Assembly (NCBI GenBank): GCA_011322445.1
Contig: DRMV01000009.1
Location: 1-59,446 of the forward strand
Length of the DNA: 59,446 nucleotides
Origin: Chloroflexota bacterium
GTDB taxonomy: Bacteria; Chloroflexota; Anaerolineae; Anaerolineales; DRMV01
Direction: 5' to 3'
Positions 17,244 to 59,446 of the stretch are shown here, piece by piece. Within the stretch, counting starts at the first letter, position 1, and each line of letters opens with the position of its first letter. The translations under genes were made by a program, and so were the position numbers. A model generated the notes under the pieces. It saw only the letters and a list, made by a program, of their open reading frames with translations, was not told the origin of the DNA and ran no database searches.

Positions 17244-18332
17244 CTACGGCCCCAGCACCCGCTTATCCCGGAAAAACTGCCATACCTCTTGTACCATCTC
17301 GATATCGTGGTTCTGGTGGCCAAAGCGCCATTCATACAGCCAGGAATACTGCTGAGCCATGCTCGGTGCGGCGTGACCGCCTCCCTCGATGCGATAGAGC
17401 ACCACCTGGGTGCCCCCCACCCCATGTCCGTAGGTGTACCGCACCACGGTGCTGCCATCGTGCGGGTCGAGGTCAGGGAACCGGTGCACTACCGGCTCGG
17501 GATCGGCGCCGTCCACCTTGACCCACAGCGCCACCGAGGCCGCGGTGGATTGCACCGTGCCGAAAGAAGGTTTCGGCGGCCTGGAAACCGTGCCGCCCTC
17601 ATAAGGCAAATGGGCGTCACGCGTGCCGTTCATGAACAGCACCGAAAGGGGATGCGAAGGCGGCGGGCATTCGGAATGAGCAGGCATGGCTGCTGCCACG
17701 GCAGCCACTGCGGCCAGGCGGGTGGGCATCTCCACCGCCAGGCGCAAGGCCATCAGCCCGCCGTTGGAAGTGCCGGAAACATACACCCGCCGCGGGTCGA
17801 TGGAATAAGTGGAGAGCAAGTGCTCCAGAAGCACGCCAATAAACCGCACATCGTCGGCTTGAGAACTCACCGTGGCATCGCCGCGGCAATCGTTCCAGGT
17901 GGGCTTGCCGTAAGCACCGGGCCGCCCTTCGGGATAAACCACCACCACACCCTCGGCATCGGCCAGGGGCATCCAGAGTTTGTAAGGGGTTTTGTAACCG
18001 CTTTCCCCCGTCATATCGTCAATCGTCACGCCGCCGCCGTGGAGTTCCAGCACCAGGGCATACGGCCCGCTCTTTTCTGCCGCGGGCAAATAAAGGGCAT
18101 AGCGCCGCGAGACGCCATCCACCACCAACGTGTGCGTGGCAAGCGTGCCACGCGGGGCCTCACCCTGCGGCCAGACTGGGGCATTTATCCCGCGGGCACA
18201 GCCCCCCAACATCGCCAGGCCCCAAAACGCCACCACTCCCAACAACGGGAAGCCTATCCGCCACCCTCCGCTGCCCGGGTGCTGGCGGCCTTCCCGCCTG
18301 TTGGAAACCCTGCCGTGGCGGCCTGTTTTCAT
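17244..18332 (-). CDS. Secreted esterase lipoprotein (LpqC / PHB-depolymerase / feruloyl-esterase type)
   Basis: An alpha/beta-hydrolase of about 362 residues with an N-terminal hydrophobic stretch and lipobox (LAMLGGC, Cys near residue 45). The beta-strand and oxyanion region (YALVLELHGGG) and the nucleophile elbow VSGTSNGGLMA match the polyhydroxybutyrate-depolymerase/LpqC group. GTRDAHLPYEGG and IEGGGHAAP supply likely catalytic Asp and His. It should hydrolyse esters outside the cell. The first 25 residues are very basic, so a start a few codons inside cannot be excluded. Its stop is 3 bp from the convergent EEP gene's stop. Confidence 0.85.
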   Translation of the reverse strand: MKTGRHGRVSNRREGRQHPGSGGWRIGFPLLGVVAFWGLAMLGGCARGINAPVWPQGEAPRGTLATHTLVVDGVSRRYALYLPAAEKSGPYALVLELHGGGVTIDDMTGESGYKTPYKLWMPLADAEGVVVVYPEGRPGAYGKPTWNDCRGDATVSSQADDVRFIGVLLEHLLSTYSIDPRRVYVSGTSNGGLMALRLAVEMPTRLAAVAAVAAAMPAHSECPPPSHPLSVLFMNGTRDAHLPYEGGTVSRPPKPSFGTVQSTAASVALWVKVDGADPEPVVHRFPDLDPHDGSTVVRYTYGHGVGGTQVVLYRIEGGGHAAPSMAQQYSWLYEWRFGHQNHDIEMVQEVWQFFRDKRVLGP

Positions 18333-43628: not shown

Positions 43629-43713
43629 GCCGAAGTGGCGGAATTGGCAGACGCGCTGCGTTCAGGGCGCAGTGGGCCTTGCGCCCATGTGGGTTCGACT
43701 CCCACCTTCGGCA
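43629..43713 (+). tRNA. tRNA-Leu (anticodon CAG)
   Basis: An 85-nt class II tRNA. The acceptor stem GCCGAAG/CTTCGGC, anticodon stem CTGCG/CGCAG with loop TTCAGGG (anticodon 43663-43665), a long variable arm and the T-loop GTTCGACTC are all visible. The discriminator is A and CCA is not encoded. It reads CUG leucine codons. It has its own promoter and a terminator directly after. Confidence 0.95.
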
Positions 43714-53183: not shown

Positions 53184-53223
53184 GGCTATACGAAACACCC
53201 CTTTAGAAAAAGGCTATACGAAA
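53184..53223. repeat. Direct repeat of GGCTATACGAAA at the DnaA-N gene end
   Basis: Two copies (53184-53195 and 53212-53223) spaced 28 bp. The second contains the stop codon of the minus-strand gene. The flanking CACCCC is also repeated, so this looks like a local duplication of the gene end. Confidence 0.5.
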
Positions 53224-55382
53224 TCCACCCCCAGCCACCCTGCCAAAGCCAGCATGGCCTGGCGCCCTGCTTTCCCGAAGACCTGCCAGCGCGGCTCCAC
53301 CGCCATCACGGCTTCCGGCCCGTATTCCAGATGCCGCGCCAGTAGCGCCCGGATTTGTTCTTTGGGTAGCCGGGCAAGGGCATCAAAGGCGCCGCCGGGC
53401 AAGCCACCCTGCCGGATTTTGTGTACGGCAAAACCTAACGGCGCTTCCAGCCTGGTGTCATGCGCGGCCACATAGAGCAGCCAGGCCACCCCGTGCCAGG
53501 CAGGAAAGCGCAGCAGGGCTTTCTGCACGGCTGGGGCAAGGTTTTGCCAGGCCGGTAAATCTTCCCAGCGCCACGCGGTAGAGATTTCCCCACCCGCCTG
53601 CGCAGGTGGGTGCTCTTTTGGTTGCCCGGAGGTTGCCTGAGGGTGATTAAGGTTAACGTGAGGGAAAGTTTTGGCGCTTTCCGCGGGAAGGTTTTGGCCG
53701 CGCGGGAGGAAAGTTTTGGCAGAGCCGGAGGAAACCTTTGGCGTTTCCGGGGGAAATTTTTGGCCTTCTGGCGAGGATTGTTGAGGAACACCGGGGGAAA
53801 TTTCTGGCAATTCGGCCAGGGCTTCCAGGGCGCGGCGGCGAATTTCCGGCGGAGCCTCGACGTTGGTCAGCGTATGAAGGGCTTCTTCGGCCACAGTCGT
53901 GTCTTTGTGGCGGCAGGCTTCCTGCAGGCGATGCAAGGGGGTGAAATCGCCCTGCTGGGCGCAGGCGGCCAGGGCTTGCAGCGCGAGGCGATGAGCCGCT
54001 TCGTCGGCGGGTGTGAGCGGCAGCACGGTCTGCACCGCGAGCGTGAAGGTGTTTCCCCGCCCGGGTGGTCGGCGCAGGAAGGCCGCGGGCGGTATGCTTT
54101 CCCCTTCTGGCGGCGCAGCGGCCGGCGTGTCGAGGGCTGCCACGGGGATCAAATCACGCCCATAGCGGGCTTTTTTCAGGCCCAGCCAGCCTGCCACGCG
54201 GCGGGCTGTGGCTTCCAGCGTGCGGAAGCCGTTGCCTGCCGCGCGGCCTTCGCGCTCGGCGCGGTGGCGGGCGACCAGGTAAAGCCAGGCTACGGTGTGC
54301 CCCAGCGCCGGCAGGTGATGCTCGATGAAATACCAGGGGATGAAGAGTTTGCCTTCGGCTTCGATGAGTGAAGTTTCCAGAAGTTCGCCCATGCCGAGTG
54401 CTTTGGCCAGGGTGGCTTGAGGCAGCGCCAGAGGGCGCAAACGCTCGCTGAGCGCGGCGCGCAGGGAGGGCGGTTGCGCAGGCGGCGCGGGGGGCGGGCT
54501 GGGCAGGGGCGCCAGCAAATTTTGGGGAGGCTGTTGCAGCGCCGCGGCCAGCGCTGCGATGGGGTCTTCTTTCAGATTGTGGGCTTCCAGGAACGCTAAC
54601 ACGCTTTCCAGGTCGTGGGGCGTGAGGGGCATATCGGTGGTGAAGATGTAGCGGTTGGGCGCTTGCCGGTGGGCGTCGAGATGGCGGTCTCGCTCCACCT
54701 GCACAAGGGGGGCGAGCAGCCCCTGGTTGAGGATGTTGTTGATGGTGCGCTTGGTGAGGTGGCTCCAGCGGGCGAGGGTGTGGCGTGGTACTTCCAGCGC
54801 CTGGCCGGGGCGGATGGGCTGACCGGGGCCATAAGGATGGCGATTGGCGAGGAAGTGGGTTTGCCGGAGGGCAACGTAGAGCCAGGCAGCCCGACTGCCG
54901 AGGTAAGGCAACCAGCGCAGGAAGTAGCCGGGCAGGAAGACGATGCGGCGAGGTCGCTGGAAGGCGTCGCGCAGGCGCAGGCTGACAGCGCGCAGGTCGA
55001 CGGATGCAGGCATGGGTGTCGGGGGTGGTGACGGCTCGTTGGCTTGGGCTTGCGGAACAGTTGTTCCGGAAGGCTGTGGGTTTTCAGAAGGTGGGGTTGT
55101 ATCGAGGGGTGGGGTTGTATCGGGCGCGGCCACGACGAAAACCACCTGAACAGGCGCGCCGAGCAAGCCGCGCAGTTGATTTTCCAGCGTGGTGCGCAGG
55201 CGGTCGGCCAGCCAATCTCGGGCATAGGCGTTGGCGACGCCCACGGTCAGCACTTGCCCATCGTAGTTCAAGGGGCGCGCGTCGCGCAACCAGGCGTCGA
55301 AATCGGCCCGGTTGAGGGTGTAACGCAGCTGGCCGAGCACTTGCTGCCAGGCTTGCTGTGCTTGCGAAAGGAGGGACGACAT
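53214..55382 (-). CDS. DnaA-N-terminal-domain protein with duplicated winged-helix-like modules (putative replication initiator or DNA-binding protein)
   Basis: 722 residues. Residues 5 to about 85 match the DnaA N-terminal domain: AWQQVLGQLRYTLNRADFDAWLRDARPL, LTVGVANAYARDWLADRL, VQVVFVV. After a Pro-rich linker a module begins RIVFLPGYFLRWLPYLGSRA-AWLYVALRQ, runs through LARWSHLTKRTINNILNQG (helix-turn-helix-like), and ends NRYIFTTDMPLTPHD. A second copy reads KLFIPWYFIEHHLPALGHTV-AWLYLVARH ... NTFTLAVQTVLPLTPADE. A third, partial copy has FPAWHGVAWLLYVAAHD. There is no AAA+ or DnaA box-binding domain. The neighbours (AAA ATPase, parAB) and the internal iteron-like DNA repeats suggest a replicon-initiation or segregation role. 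Function unproven. Confidence 0.83.
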   Translation of the reverse strand: MSSLLSQAQQAWQQVLGQLRYTLNRADFDAWLRDARPLNYDGQVLTVGVANAYARDWLADRLRTTLENQLRGLLGAPVQVVFVVAAPDTTPPLDTTPPSENPQPSGTTVPQAQANEPSPPPTPMPASVDLRAVSLRLRDAFQRPRRIVFLPGYFLRWLPYLGSRAAWLYVALRQTHFLANRHPYGPGQPIRPGQALEVPRHTLARWSHLTKRTINNILNQGLLAPLVQVERDRHLDAHRQAPNRYIFTTDMPLTPHDLESVLAFLEAHNLKEDPIAALAAALQQPPQNLLAPLPSPPPAPPAQPPSLRAALSERLRPLALPQATLAKALGMGELLETSLIEAEGKLFIPWYFIEHHLPALGHTVAWLYLVARHRAEREGRAAGNGFRTLEATARRVAGWLGLKKARYGRDLIPVAALDTPAAAPPEGESIPPAAFLRRPPGRGNTFTLAVQTVLPLTPADEAAHRLALQALAACAQQGDFTPLHRLQEACRHKDTTVAEEALHTLTNVEAPPEIRRRALEALAELPEISPGVPQQSSPEGQKFPPETPKVSSGSAKTFLPRGQNLPAESAKTFPHVNLNHPQATSGQPKEHPPAQAGGEISTAWRWEDLPAWQNLAPAVQKALLRFPAWHGVAWLLYVAAHDTRLEAPLGFAVHKIRQGGLPGGAFDALARLPKEQIRALLARHLEYGPEAVMAVEPRWQVFGKAGRQAMLALAGWLGVDFV
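53661..53808. repeat. Iteron-like array, 16-bp unit at 22-bp period, inside the DnaA-N gene
   Basis: Six copies related to GGGGGAAATTTTTGGC end at 53675, 53698, 53720, 53742, 53764 and 53808. Steps are 23, 22, 22, 22 and 44 bp. The slot ending at 53786 holds a decayed copy. Two helical turns separate the units. Since 22 is not a multiple of 3, the encoded peptides differ in frame, so selection on protein does not explain the array. Exact copies recur at 59145 and 59169. Confidence 0.65.
55054..55067. promoter_or_regulatory. Candidate parS-like palindrome 1
   Basis: GGAACAGTTGTTCC within TGCGGAACAGTTGTTCCGGA, in the segment of the DnaA-N gene encoding its Pro-rich linker, where coding constraint is low. 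Confidence 0.5.
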
Positions 55383-55565
55383 TGCGCGCACCTGAATGGA
55401 TTCCCCCGATCGGTATGGGTGCGCAGGCGGGTATCGGGAATGCGCCAGCCGGAAGCCCTGAGGGCGTCCGGTGCCACGAGGGGAGCCTGGTTGTAAGGGG
55501 AGGCGGTCCGGCAGGGGGCTTTCCCTTCCACGGGAATGTGCCACACCTTTCCGGCCCTCTCAACC

Positions 55566-55593
55566 TTGACAAGGCGGCCAAAACCCCTATAAT
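55566..55593 (+). promoter_or_regulatory. Strong orphan promoter
   Basis: Perfect TTGACA (55566-55571), 16-bp spacer, perfect TATAAT (55588-55593). It points into about 175 bp of non-coding DNA and then antisense into the AAA gene. Confidence 0.7.
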
Positions 55594-55599
55594 TGGCGT

Positions 55600-55750
55600 T
55601 GCCCGAAAAATTTCTGCCCGCCTGCGCCCACGGTTGCCCGACCGGGGCGCTTGGCTTTTAAGCCCTTACCCGTGTCCCTGTTCGGCTTTGGCCGCGCGTG
55701 CGGCAAAGCGCCGGGCATGGGTTGGGCTTCAGCATGGAAGGCCGATTCTC
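55600..55750 (+). ncRNA. Candidate small or antisense RNA (extent uncertain)
   Basis: Inferred only from the orphan promoter, absence of an ORF with a ribosome-binding site, and hairpin potential: GGCTTTGGCCGC (55684-55695) against GCGGCAAAGCGCC (55700-55712). No terminator with a T-run was found, so the 3' end is unknown. It matches no RNA family that I recognise. Confidence 0.3.
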
Positions 55751-55755
55751 CTTGC

Positions 55756-55769
55756 GGAACAATTGTTCC
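55756..55769. promoter_or_regulatory. Candidate parS-like palindrome 2
   Basis: GGAACAATTGTTCC, preceded by TTGC, ends exactly one base before the stop codon of the AAA gene (55770). Confidence 0.55.
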
Positions 55770-56540
55770 TCAAGGCTGCCCGACCATCCACGGCTCGACG
55801 GTGGTGCCGCCGCCTTCCAGCAGCGCCTCAAGGGCCAGGCGGCTGAGTTCCAGCGTCTCCCGTGGATTGCCTTGCGAAAGCATGTAGAGGCGCTCTAACG
55901 CCTCGGGGGTGAATAGCGATCCCATCACCCGGCCGGCGCGCCGCGTGATTTCTTCGATCACGAAAACCAGCGTGTCATAGTCCCACGGCGTCAGCAGGTA
56001 ACGGGCTGCGCCCTGGATGCCCCGGCTATCCCACGGATGGTTGAAGACGGCATAGCCGGTAAGCACGACGGTTGTGGCCTGCGCGAGGTCGGCAATGAGT
56101 TGTGCCATGCCCGAGTTCAGGCGTTGCTGCCCCAGGTCGATCACAATGCCGGCGTATTGATTCTGCAGGAAGGCCTCTAAGCGAGCGCGGCGCAGTTTTT
56201 CTTCCTTGACCCGCGGCAGCCCTAAACTGTCGTTGACCAGCTTGAGTAGCCGGTTGGCTGTGCGCGGGGCAACGGCTAAGGCCAGGGGCGAGGGCAACCG
56301 TCCCCCCGCCAGAAAGCGGGCAAATGCCGATTTGCCGCTCCCCGGCTCGCCATCGATCAGCACCAGGCCTTTCTCCTGGCTGAACCATCGCTGCCGGATT
56401 TCTTGATAAACGCGGGCCAGTTGAGGCACGGGCACGAAATAACGCCCGTCCTCGAAGGTCTCAAAGGGGTTTTCCAGCAGACGGAGCATCTGCAGGCGCA
56501 GCGCACGCTGCACAGCCGGGTTCTCTGGGGAAGTTGCCAT
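55770..56540 (-). CDS. AAA ATPase (ExeA/TniB-like)
   Basis: 256 residues. Walker A GEPGSGKSAFARFL near residues 64-77, a Walker B-like AGIVIDLGQQ, sensor-1-like TTVVLTGYAVF, and a C-terminal helical part with LYMLSQGNPRETLELSRLALEAL (sensor-2 lid). This is the architecture of the ExeA/TniB/MuB group of ATPases that load partner proteins on DNA or peptidoglycan. It lies upstream of the DnaA-N gene on the same strand and divergent from parA. It could assist the DnaA-N protein as DnaC/MuB-like ATPases do; that is inference. The ATG at 56540 has GAGGTGACC close by; a GTG two codons earlier is possible. Confidence 0.85.
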   Translation of the reverse strand: MATSPENPAVQRALRLQMLRLLENPFETFEDGRYFVPVPQLARVYQEIRQRWFSQEKGLVLIDGEPGSGKSAFARFLAGGRLPSPLALAVAPRTANRLLKLVNDSLGLPRVKEEKLRRARLEAFLQNQYAGIVIDLGQQRLNSGMAQLIADLAQATTVVLTGYAVFNHPWDSRGIQGAARYLLTPWDYDTLVFVIEEITRRAGRVMGSLFTPEALERLYMLSQGNPRETLELSRLALEALLEGGGTTVEPWMVGQP

Positions 56541-56772
56541 GGTCACCTCGTGACCTCATTATACACCCTTTTGGCGGAATGTGCATAACGGGATTTGAAT
56601 ATGCTCATTTTGTTCAAAATGGCGCCTTGTTGGTGCGGTTTTGTGAAACGCACTTGCTTTTTTGCTTTGGGGGTGATAAGATATAAGCGGCGGGGAGCCT
56701 ATGCTGGCGGTGCGAGGGGGCAGCGGGTTGGCTTCCCCAAAGCGCGTGTTCGCGTGAACGAAGGAGCATTCT
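56541..56772. promoter_or_regulatory. Divergent promoter region between the AAA gene and parA
   Basis: Minus strand: TATAAT at 56558-56563 serves the AAA gene. Plus strand: TATAAG at 56682-56687 may serve parA. Between them lie inverted repeats ATTTTG-tt-CAAAAT (56606-56619) and GTGCG...CGCAC (about 56632-56652), plausible operators for ParA/ParB or the AAA-DnaA-N pair. Confidence 0.4.
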
Positions 56773-57594
56773 ATGATTCTGGCGGTTTCGGCCCTCAAAG
56801 GGGGGCCAGGCAAGACCACCTTCGCAGTCAATGTGGCGGCAGGGTTGGCGCTCCGCATCAGCAAGCGCACCCCCCGCCCGCGGGTCCTGCTGGTGGATCT
56901 GGACCCGCAGGCGCACGCCGCGTATTGGGCGTTGGGGAAATCGCGCGGCGACCCCATCCCTGTGGGTGAAGAGGACCTCTCCACCCATCTGCTGGGCACC
57001 GCCCACGGTTCGCCGCTGGACATCATTCACCCGGCGGCCTTCCCCGCTTCGGCCAATATGGATGTGGTGCTGGTGCGCCCTCAGGCTATGGCCCAGGCTG
57101 AGCGGGTGTTGACGTCGGACCTGGCCGAGGGTATTTACGCCCTGGAGGAGTATCTGGAGCCGTTACGGAGCGCCTATGCGGTGATTGTAGTTGACACGCC
57201 GCCTTCGGCGGGGGCGATGACGCTGAACGCGCTGGTGGCTGCGGATGCCGTGCTCATTCCCATGGAACTGACCAAAATGGGGGTCGATGGCCTGCGCGAA
57301 ACGCTGGCTGTGGTGGAAAAAATCCGCCGCCGTCACAACCCCCAAATGCGCATTGTGGGCATTGCCCCCAACCGCTGCGATTTCCGCCGTAGTGAGACGA
57401 ATGATATTTACCGCTTCATGCGCCAGCAATACAAGGACCTGGTGCTGCTTCCGGTGGCCGAGCGGGCGCAAATTGCTTATGCCTCTTCACTGCGCAAAGA
57501 TATTTTTTCGCACCTTGGCTCGACCCAGGACCAGGCGGTGGTGGAAATGGGGCGGGTGGTCGATGCCGTAGTGCAGAGGTTGGGACTCCGGTAG
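56773..57594 (+). CDS. parA: ParA-family chromosome/plasmid partition ATPase
   Basis: 273 residues. Deviant Walker A SALKGGPGKTT near residues 6-16 (with the signature Lys), VLLVDLDPQAHAAYWALG, and Walker B VIVVDTPPSAGAMTLNAL. IGIAPNRCD-type and VAERAQIAYASSLRKDIFSH segments complete the ParA/MinD fold. There is no N-terminal DNA-binding extension, so this is a small chromosomal or type Ib ParA. It works with the ParB encoded 67 bp downstream to move DNA carrying parS. AAGGAG precedes the ATG. Palindrome 3 lies between it and parB. Confidence 0.95.
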   Translation: MILAVSALKGGPGKTTFAVNVAAGLALRISKRTPRPRVLLVDLDPQAHAAYWALGKSRGDPIPVGEEDLSTHLLGTAHGSPLDIIHPAAFPASANMDVVLVRPQAMAQAERVLTSDLAEGIYALEEYLEPLRSAYAVIVVDTPPSAGAMTLNALVAADAVLIPMELTKMGVDGLRETLAVVEKIRRRHNPQMRIVGIAPNRCDFRRSETNDIYRFMRQQYKDLVLLPVAERAQIAYASSLRKDIFSHLGSTQDQAVVEMGRVVDAVVQRLGLR

Positions 57595-57601
57595 CCCTTG
57601 C

Positions 57602-57615
57602 GGAACAGTTGTTCC
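57602..57615. promoter_or_regulatory. Candidate parS-like palindrome 3
   Basis: GGAACAGTTGTTCC, preceded by TTGC, lies 8 bp after the parA stop and 46 bp before the parB start. Confidence 0.55.
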
Positions 57616-57661
57616 ATAAGCCGCGTGTTGCCCAAACGGGCGCTTTCTCTTGGGAGTGCGT

Positions 57662-58822
57662 ATGTCTCGGAAACGCAAGCCTCAGTGGACGGCCGATGAC
57701 TTTCAACCGACCGCCGACACCCAATACGACGACCTGCTGCAAACCCCCGCGGTGCCCACCGGCGGGCGGCAGGCCCGCAAGCGGGTCACGCGGGTGCTGG
57801 TTAGCCAGATTTTGCCCGACCCTTACCAGCCGCGCCCTTTGTTGCCGCCGGAAATCAAGCAAGATTTCTTTGCTGGGCAACTGAACTGCTTCGAGGCCGC
57901 GCGTGCCTGGCTGACGCTGGCCGAGCAGGAGCCTGCCGAGGCCGAGCGCGTTCAGGCTCTGCTGCACATGGGGGCGACTTTCAGCGAACACGGCCAGATC
58001 AAGCCCGTTACTGGCTACTGGGATGCGCAAAGCCGGCGCTTCATTCTGGAAACCGGGGAACGGCGTTTCTGGGCAGCGGTGTTACAGGCGGTGCAGCAAG
58101 AGAGCGCCGAAGAGCCCCAACTGGAAGCCCTGGTCGTCGAAAAGCCTTCCCGCGCCCGGCAGGTGTTGGAAAACATCACCGCTGAACCGCCCAGCGCGGT
58201 GATGCGCGCCCGGGAGATCGCAGCCCTGGTGTTGGAGCAAATGGATGTCTTGCCGGAGACCGGCGAAAGCGATTTCGCTTACTACCGACGCGCTGCTGAG
58301 ATCAAGCGCCTGCCTTCGGCGGTGGTGCGCCATGTGGAAGATTTGTTGGGCATGAGCCGCCGCTACATTCGCTACTACTTGCAAATTCTCCATTTGCCCG
58401 ACCACCTGCTGTTGCTGGCCGACCGCTACCGCCTGAGCGAAGGCGCGCTACGCGAGGTGCTCAAAGGCGCGCCGGAGACCTGGGAAGAAAGCATTACGGC
58501 GCTGATTGCGGGTCTGGGTGATCCGCGGGAAGCCGCTGCGCCGGTGGCCGAAAAGCCGTCCCCTGCCAGGGGCAAGCCCCGCCCCAAGCGGGCGCAACTC
58601 GACCCCCGCATTTCCATTGCGCGCCGCATGCGCACGCCGGTGCGCTCGTTGTTGCGGCTGGAAGCCGACGACGTTCCCCGGGTGGCCGAGCACTTCGCGG
58701 CTGAGTTGGGTGATCCTGCGATGGTGCAGCAGGCTGCCGATGCGCTGGCTGCCCTGGCCGAGCGGCTGCGCGCCCTGGCGCAGGAAGGAGAAAGCGGCAA
58801 ATCGCGCCGCCGTAAACGGTAG
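57662..58822 (+). CDS. parB: ParB-family DNA-binding partition protein
   Basis: 386 residues from the ATG at 57662 (GGGAG upstream). The CTPase/ParB-N part has RVLVSQILPDPYQPRPLLP and GQIKPVTGYWD...FILETGERRFWAAVLQA. Between these lies a 50-residue insertion (FEAARAWLTLAEQEPAEAERVQALL) not found in standard ParB. The helix-turn-helix part follows: REIAALVLEQMD, LLGMSRRYIRYYLQILHLPDHLLLLADRYRLSEGALREVLKG. A basic Arg/Lys-rich C-terminus ends the protein. The insertion and divergent HTH could recognise a site other than canonical parS. Confidence 0.88.
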   Translation: MSRKRKPQWTADDFQPTADTQYDDLLQTPAVPTGGRQARKRVTRVLVSQILPDPYQPRPLLPPEIKQDFFAGQLNCFEAARAWLTLAEQEPAEAERVQALLHMGATFSEHGQIKPVTGYWDAQSRRFILETGERRFWAAVLQAVQQESAEEPQLEALVVEKPSRARQVLENITAEPPSAVMRAREIAALVLEQMDVLPETGESDFAYYRRAAEIKRLPSAVVRHVEDLLGMSRRYIRYYLQILHLPDHLLLLADRYRLSEGALREVLKGAPETWEESITALIAGLGDPREAAAPVAEKPSPARGKPRPKRAQLDPRISIARRMRTPVRSLLRLEADDVPRVAEHFAAELGDPAMVQQAADALAALAERLRALAQEGESGKSRRRKR

Positions 58823-59005: not shown

Positions 59006-59116
59006 GCGTCGAAGTGCGAAACGCGGCCAACAGCGCGTTTCGACGATGATTGCTTCGCGATTTCCGCTCAACGCGCTTATCCGCAACTCAGGTTGGGTGA
59101 GGATGATGGGGCTGCG

Positions 59117-59130
59117 GAACAATTGTTCCG
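59117..59130. promoter_or_regulatory. Candidate parS-like palindrome 4
   Basis: GGAACAATTGTTCC in TGCGGAACAATTGTTCCGTA, 14 bp before two exact iteron-like units. Confidence 0.55.
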
Positions 59131-59144
59131 TAGGTTGACATCCG

Positions 59145-59184
59145 GGGGAAATTTTTGGCCGGTTGCTGGGGGAAATTTTTGGCA
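59145..59184. repeat. Two exact iteron-like units beyond parB
   Basis: GGGGGAAATTTTTGGC at 59145-59160 and 59169-59184 (24-bp period), identical to the best copy in the DnaA-N gene at 53749-53764. Confidence 0.65.
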
Positions 59185-59353: not shown

Positions 59354-59405
59354 GGCGTAACCTGCTAAAAAGGGTGTCCCAAAACCACTTTAGCGAGGTT
59401 ACGCC
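59354..59405 (+). mobile_element. Probable left end of an insertion sequence
   Basis: GGCGTAACCTGCTAAA (59354-59369) and TTTAGCGAGGTTACGCC (59389-59405) form a hairpin with one extra base. It encloses AGGGTGTCCCAAAACC, a sequence typical of IS terminal repeats (GGNTGTCCCAAAA, from memory). A start codon follows directly. The right end lies outside the window. Confidence 0.4.
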
Positions 59406-59446
59406 ATGCGCAGAAATCCTAACACAAAACCAGCCAGCCCGGACTA
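59406..59446 (+). CDS. Start of a truncated gene, possibly a transposase
   Basis: ATG at 59406 with GAGG 8-9 bp upstream opens a basic frame (RRNPNTKPASPD) that leaves the window after 13 codons. Its place next to the IS-like end suggests a transposase, which cannot be confirmed. Confidence 0.3.
   Translation, partial: MRRNPNTKPASPD

Follow-up and report, generated by a model that had tools for sequence, protein, structure and literature searches.

Do four genes at the right end of a Chloroflexota contig, which combine a part of DnaA with a ParA/ParB pair, form the unit that starts the replication of a replicon and segregates its copies? We addressed this question for contig DRMV01000009.1 of assembly GCA_011322445.1, whose entire length of 59,446 nucleotides is called the window in the following. 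It constitutes contig C9 of a 2.63-Mb draft genome in 53 contigs, the nearest relatives of which are named Anaerolineales. The genes of an initiator-like winged-helix protein and of an AAA ATPase lie on the minus strand, and parA and parB lie divergently on the plus strand. An initial annotation had regarded this region as a possible undescribed replicon-maintenance system, and all parts that it had named (DnaA-N protein, AAA ATPase, parA, parB and repeats) are present at that place (Table 1). In our view this module is likely to serve a plasmid- or chromid-type replicon lineage of the Anaerolineales as its core for replication initiation and partition.

Conservation of the gene arrangement

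When 400 genomes of the order were searched with ParB, 61 proved to contain the family; 64 loci had named records. The arrangement was counted only for loci with at least 5 kb of sequence upstream of parB (n = 42). At 41 of these loci of other Anaerolineales, ParA is encoded in line with parB and the AAA and initiator genes are divergent. Co-occurrence of the genes in relatives, on which the initial proposal of a common system depended, thus takes the form of a fixed arrangement. The module is widespread in this one Chloroflexota order; elsewhere in the phylum, a phylum-wide ParB search provided just a few distant relatives. Searching a plasmid collection with the window's initiator and with ParB returned one record each and nothing more, and a phage collection gave no match.

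Several loci of family f13 encode a P22_AR_N-type protein and a small protein together with a shorter initiator that has DnaA_N and a single winged helix; at other f13 loci DnaA_N could not be detected in the initiator. A second parA with a partner gene of 120–130 aa lies near the module at L091, L093, L095, L096, L106 and L107. A pair resembling these two genes occupies the expected place of ParAB on the plasmid of Leptolinea HRD-7 (AP024711.1).

A DnaA domain on a winged-helix protein

The DnaA_N match of the 722-residue protein passes the Pfam cut-off (37.6 versus 24.6 bits, 1.8e-9). The predicted structure has a mean pLDDT of 69 and is confident for residues 1–85 and the winged-helix modules; residues 1–85 superpose on DnaA domain I (Z 14.7, 1.7 Å) as well as on DciA (Z 9.6). 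Residues W6, F22, W25 and W50 of domain I of E. coli DnaA are kept as W12, F28, W31 and W57, and E21 and F46 align with D27 and Y53. The DnaA-N similarity noticed at the outset therefore persists in both profile and fold searches. Concerning the two or three repeats of a helix-turn-helix module that had been proposed, two homologous winged-helix modules are evident (BLAST E 2e-6), and a third is weaker (E 0.004 against module II). Beyond the modules, the AlphaFold model contains a helical stretch (residues 458–524), a disordered linker (532–604) and a C-terminus of low confidence.

A number of different DNA-binding proteins have folds similar to these winged helices. The matches include RepA_N and RepE initiators, all with Z < 8. 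Assigning the protein to a Rep family from the fold of its winged-helix part alone was dropped, as these were just general winged-helix matches. None of the family models searched recognises the 722-aa protein as a replication initiator, and PHROGs gave no match to the window's initiator. Of two relatives, one matches the phage family phrog_26369 ("replication initiation protein") with its winged-helix part, the other with its DnaA_N part.

Related proteins combine these domains in other ways. In a genome of another family of the order (G059; L050, 7097–9085) the module has DnaA_N at the C-terminus of the initiator, such that the domain order is not fixed. Single winged-helix relatives occur in other Chloroflexota classes (L285–L294, L299); several adjoin an XRE-type gene and none occurs with par genes of the module family, indicating that the domain family extends beyond the module. 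The window's genome itself encodes a second DnaA_N hybrid (G000:C1, L052, 1447–5788) with an N-terminal winged helix and a C-terminal DnaA_N. Next to it lie a tyrosine recombinase, a ParA and a small ParB-like gene; the locus looks like an integrative element.

Iterons and GC skew within the initiator gene

An iteron array lies inside the initiator gene and is conserved in relatives. It corresponds to about residues 525–573 and overlaps the low-confidence, poorly conserved linker. As a period of 22 bp cannot be divided by 3, the iterons are no by-product of protein repeats. Direct repeats at helical spacing were also found on the closed circular plasmid plas-ZRK (CP069395.1, 179,736 bp) and in two f13 genomes, there with a period of 33 bp. 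In an unguided repeat scan the strongest direct-repeat cluster was located at 53,662 in the window and at 106,999 on plas-ZRK, in both cases inside the initiator gene; on the G059 contig the top two clusters are inside this gene. On the HRD-7 plasmid and in Longilinea other repeats rank higher (on HRD-7 probably including CRISPR arrays), such that these two provide no independent support for iterons.

GC skew has its minimum at the module in several replicons. On plas-ZRK, which carries the whole module, the minimum at 106,513 (107,238 after detrending) lies inside the initiator gene (105,416–107,635), and the maximum at 18,286 is almost diametrically opposite. The 33-bp iterons near 107.0 kb make up the strongest repeat cluster of this plasmid. 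For the window the minimum falls at 53,492, 170 bp away from the iteron array; with gene strand included in the model, the arm effect amounted to t = 3.7 with the best split at 53–54 kb, where only four genes lie to the right. On the G059 contig the skew is likewise lowest within the initiator gene, and the raw minimum of HRD-7 (191,076) is close to the module and a repeat array. By GC skew the module thus occupies an origin-like and not a terminus-like position, in line with the initial annotation.

Several observations weigh against the module as a replication core. The window offers only 6 kb to the right of its skew minimum, the strand-corrected fit on HRD-7 favours 163.5 kb, the minimum of the 293-kb Longilinea contig is 10–18 kb off the module, and the skew of the G009 and G005 contigs is weak or mixed. 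One DnaA-box-like site was found near 56580 but no DnaA-box cluster; a search of the genome for strict DnaA-box pairs gave none, though the consensus may differ in this organism. The ParB of the module family is absent on HRD-7. The initiator tested from f13-g46 has no detectable DnaA_N, so that this domain is not universal. Finally, the winged-helix fold is common to transcription factors, and matches below Z 8 support a "winged helix" only and no Rep family.

Candidate parS sites and the partition genes

In a single-sequence Pfam search ParB stayed below the cut-off, while the family profile reaches Spo0J/Noc at 8e-10 over the N-terminal and helix-turn-helix domains. Together with the ParA-type ATPase and with palindromes clustered near parAB as candidate parS sites, the features of a ParABS system are present. 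The palindrome GGAACARYTGTTCC has four sites in the 2.63-Mb genome, all of them in the module; allowing one mismatch adds none, and control matches numbered 0. It is the sole recurring palindrome family of the 59-kb contig, with none found in 5 base shuffles. The iterons and parS-like sites reported initially are present as six plus two iteron copies and four GGAACARYTGTTCC sites at the module. In congeners GGAACARYTGTTCC occurs at matching positions: in the initiator gene, in the AAA/initiator gap, in the parA/parB gap and after parB. More distant lineages have other palindromes that are similarly placed, for example TTGCCACGTGGCAA on plas-ZRK, whose five sites in the module form the only recurring palindrome family of that plasmid. 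ParA and the divergent ParB would segregate the copies via these lineage-specific palindromes, which may act as parS.

These data could also be explained by a locus for partition and nucleoid organisation only, at which ParAB and the palindromes are joined by an accessory DNA-binding protein and an ATPase with regulatory or tethering roles, while replication starts elsewhere. ParA, ParB and the palindromes are indeed the clearest parts of the module. ParABS loci are generally near origins, where a nearby skew minimum is expected anyway, and the window's genome has another, canonical ParAB on contig C20. (The canonical 16-bp parS was found neither on C20, nor on the dnaA-bearing contig C27, nor in the window.) However, plas-ZRK needs an initiator, its initiator gene is where the skew minimum and the iterons lie, and a linkage to DnaB exists for related initiators (see below). 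Furthermore, HRD-7 retains AAA and initiator but has another par pair, which shows that the initiator half is separable from the module's ParAB. Partition alone therefore appears a decidedly improbable function.

The AAA ATPase and a probable link to the replicative helicase

The initial annotation had suggested that initiator functions may be split over two proteins. The profile of the AAA family points weakly in this direction: among solved structures its best match over the whole AAA+ domain is Orc1/Cdc6 (E about 6e-6). In the family of the window the acidic pair of Walker B seems degenerate, and the wider relatives include ExeA-type ATPases. AAA_22 and ExeA-like matches, and distant plasmid AAA relatives named as ExeA family, would fit a transposition or conjugation module in which an ExeA/TniB-like ATPase acts with a DNA-binding partner. 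In view of the Orc1/Cdc6 match, of the pairing with ParAB conserved at nearly all testable loci, and of the fact that neither a transposase nor a relaxase was seen beside the module, we regard this as extremely improbable.

In favour of a replication core, a DnaB helicase gene immediately follows that of a related initiator in both G028 and G124, which by association ties the family to helicase loading. In G124 (L296, 7845–11052) this initiator has no detectable DnaA_N and is directly followed by its own DnaB helicase. The single-contig genome G028 harbours three related initiator loci (L046, L047 and L048) in one chromosome; two of them are beside large serine recombinases or excisionase-like genes, and L048 is followed by the DnaB helicase gene.

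DnaA domain I contacts the DnaB helicase. A domain resembling the N-terminal domain of DnaA is also present in DciA, a DnaB-binding protein (PMC5720831). By analogy with both, domain I of the initiator probably contacts DnaB as well. We propose that the winged-helix protein would act as initiator by binding to the iterons inside its own gene. These iterons are situated in DNA encoding a probably dispensable linker, such that the initiator gene would double as origin. Domain I would then recruit the replicative helicase DnaB, and the small Orc/Cdc6- or ExeA-like AAA+ protein may help as remodeller or helicase loader.

Which replicon carries the module

The initial annotation had left a choice between a chromosomal origin-proximal module and a captured plasmid or chromid core. 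The latter half is supported directly by plas-ZRK and partly by the HRD-7 plasmid, on which the AAA gene, a small gene and the initiator gene are kept. In the window's family, genome G002 has hisF adjoining the initiator gene and rpoC about 7 kb away; in G059 arginine genes flank the module. Essential genes beside the module in the window's family indicate that it is carried there by either a chromosome or a chromid.

Adjacent essential genes in G002 would also agree with an integrated plasmid or a mobile-element remnant in the chromosome of the window's family, the origin of which is no longer used. In the same sense, neighbouring genes vary between congeners, and distant relatives are found in elements with serine or tyrosine recombinases. 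Within this family, though, the genes, the iterons and the palindromes with their positions have been retained at protein identities of 47–98%, which argues against decay. Neither was a recombinase seen beside the module in this family, and the skew inflects at the module both in the window and in G059. A disused remnant is therefore unlikely.

The separate full-length dnaA that was to be looked for exists: it is located on contig C27 (G000:C27:32518-33966). On this contig dnaA has no dnaN beside it, and neither a DnaA-box cluster nor a clear GC-skew switch is seen; this would allow the module a dominant role but is no evidence of one. Tentatively, and with rather more doubt than confidence, we suggest that in the window's family a plasmid-type origin drives a replicon with essential genes. 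This would be either a second chromosome, which is not described for Anaerolineales in the papers searched, or a main chromosome taken over from DnaA/oriC.

Comparison with known replication systems

A replication and partition core with the origin in the initiator gene is of a known kind. RepABC likewise brings a dedicated initiator together with ParA and ParB at a single locus of large plasmids and chromids. For the alphaproteobacterial p42d the origin lies inside the initiator gene, without iterons (PMC3155836). The iterons and the skew minimum would place the origin of the module within the initiator coding sequence, too. In contrast to the single repA-repB-repC operon, its initiator and AAA genes diverge from parA-parB (at the 41 of 42 loci). 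Iterons, the extra AAA gene and DnaA domain I in the initiator are further differences, and no RepC-type family is among the Pfam or NCBIfam matches of the module.

The origin of the RepA_N plasmid pSK41 is part of the rep gene and lies where this codes for a dispensable linker (PMC5703833). A winged-helix initiator is common to both systems, as would be boxes (putative for the module) located centrally in the rep gene within linker-coding DNA. The RepA_N fold match is weak (4pql_B, Z 7.9 over 119 residues; 5.7 in the domain model), and RepA_N (PF06970) gave no Pfam match in the window protein or in 15 family members. Moreover, the module's initiator has two or three winged-helix-like modules where RepA_N has one, and DnaA domain I apparently in place of the primase-contacting DnaD-like C-terminal domain, and it belongs to another phylum. 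The module appears to work like RepABC or RepA_N, with the origin in the initiator gene, but in its sequences belongs to neither.

With DnaA the initiator shares domain I by sequence and fold, but it is devoid of domains III (AAA+) and IV (DNA binding), and a separate AAA+ protein is encoded beside it. Bac_DnaA has no match at the module locus, where Pfam finds DnaA_N only. Rep_3 iteron initiators such as RepE resemble the module in the iteron array at helical spacing and in their tandem winged helices. Fold matches to RepE54 span both modules at a Z of about 5, which is below the safe level, and Rep_3 has no sequence match in the initiator.

Chromid-like replicons of the Ktedonobacteria, studied in 2026, belong to the same phylum and have parA near a skew extremum; neither a canonical Rep initiator nor, unlike for the module, parB was detected there (PMC13289182). 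The module would be one form that such unseen machinery can take, and it illustrates why Pfam searches would miss it. In the open-licence literature we found no earlier description of the initiator family, its DnaA domain I, the AAA partner or the near-restriction to Anaerolineales. The module thus offers an initiator family and an origin type for Anaerolineales replicons to which none of the known Rep family models corresponds. The occurrence of DnaA domain I on a winged-helix protein, beside a separate AAA+ partner, suggests that initiator parts can be recombined. To our knowledge, no replicating vectors exist for Anaerolineales, and the module would be a starting point for them.

Feature coordinates and further observations

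Table 1. Positions of the module's genes, domains and sites in the window.
Feature	Position	Strand	Description and basis
Candidate initiator gene	53214..55382	-	722 aa, ATG at 55382; DnaA domain I, winged-helix modules, disordered linker, weak C-terminal module; Pfam, AlphaFold model, fold search, family alignment
Iteron array in initiator gene	53663..53808	+	Six GGAAANTTTTGGC copies, spacing 23, 22, 22, 22, 44 bp; strongest direct-repeat cluster of the contig
Module II	54183..54464	-	Residues about 307-400; homologous to module I (BLAST E 2e-6); structure models
Winged-helix module I	54633..54995	-	Residues about 130-250; confident in structure models; winged-helix fold matches
Palindrome GGAACAGTTGTTCC, within initiator gene	55054..55067		parS candidate
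DnaA domain I coding stretch	55179..55355	-	Pfam residues 10-68; 4tps_D Z 14.7, 1.7 Å, 84 residues
Palindrome GGAACAATTGTTCC, between AAA and initiator genes	55756..55769		parS candidate
AAA+ ATPase gene	55770..56546	-	256-258 aa; AAA_22 above Pfam cut-off; Walker A GEPGSGKS
Divergent promoter region	56547..56772		Palindrome TTTTGNNCAAAA and, on either strand, -10-like elements, all conserved in an alignment of six relatives
parA	56773..57594	+	273 aa; Pfam AAA_31 1.3e-29; NCBIfam ParA_partition 3.5e-23, under that family's cut-off
Palindrome GGAACAGTTGTTCC, between parA and parB	57602..57615		parS candidate
parB-like gene	57662..58822	+	386 aa; divergent; family profile against Spo0J/Noc 8e-10
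Palindrome GGAACAATTGTTCC, downstream of parB	59116..59129		parS candidate
Two more iterons downstream of parB	59147..59183	+	Same orientation; also after parB in relatives G003 and G009

The remainder of the contig holds ordinary metabolic genes, including those of DAHP synthase and prephenate dehydrogenase. A tRNA-Leu(CAG) gene is located at 43629–43713; as no second CAG was found among the Leu-type tRNAs checked, the contig may carry the only copy. At its right end (59397–59446) the contig stops just past a possible gene start (ATGCGCAGAAATCC), perhaps at an insertion sequence that broke the assembly.

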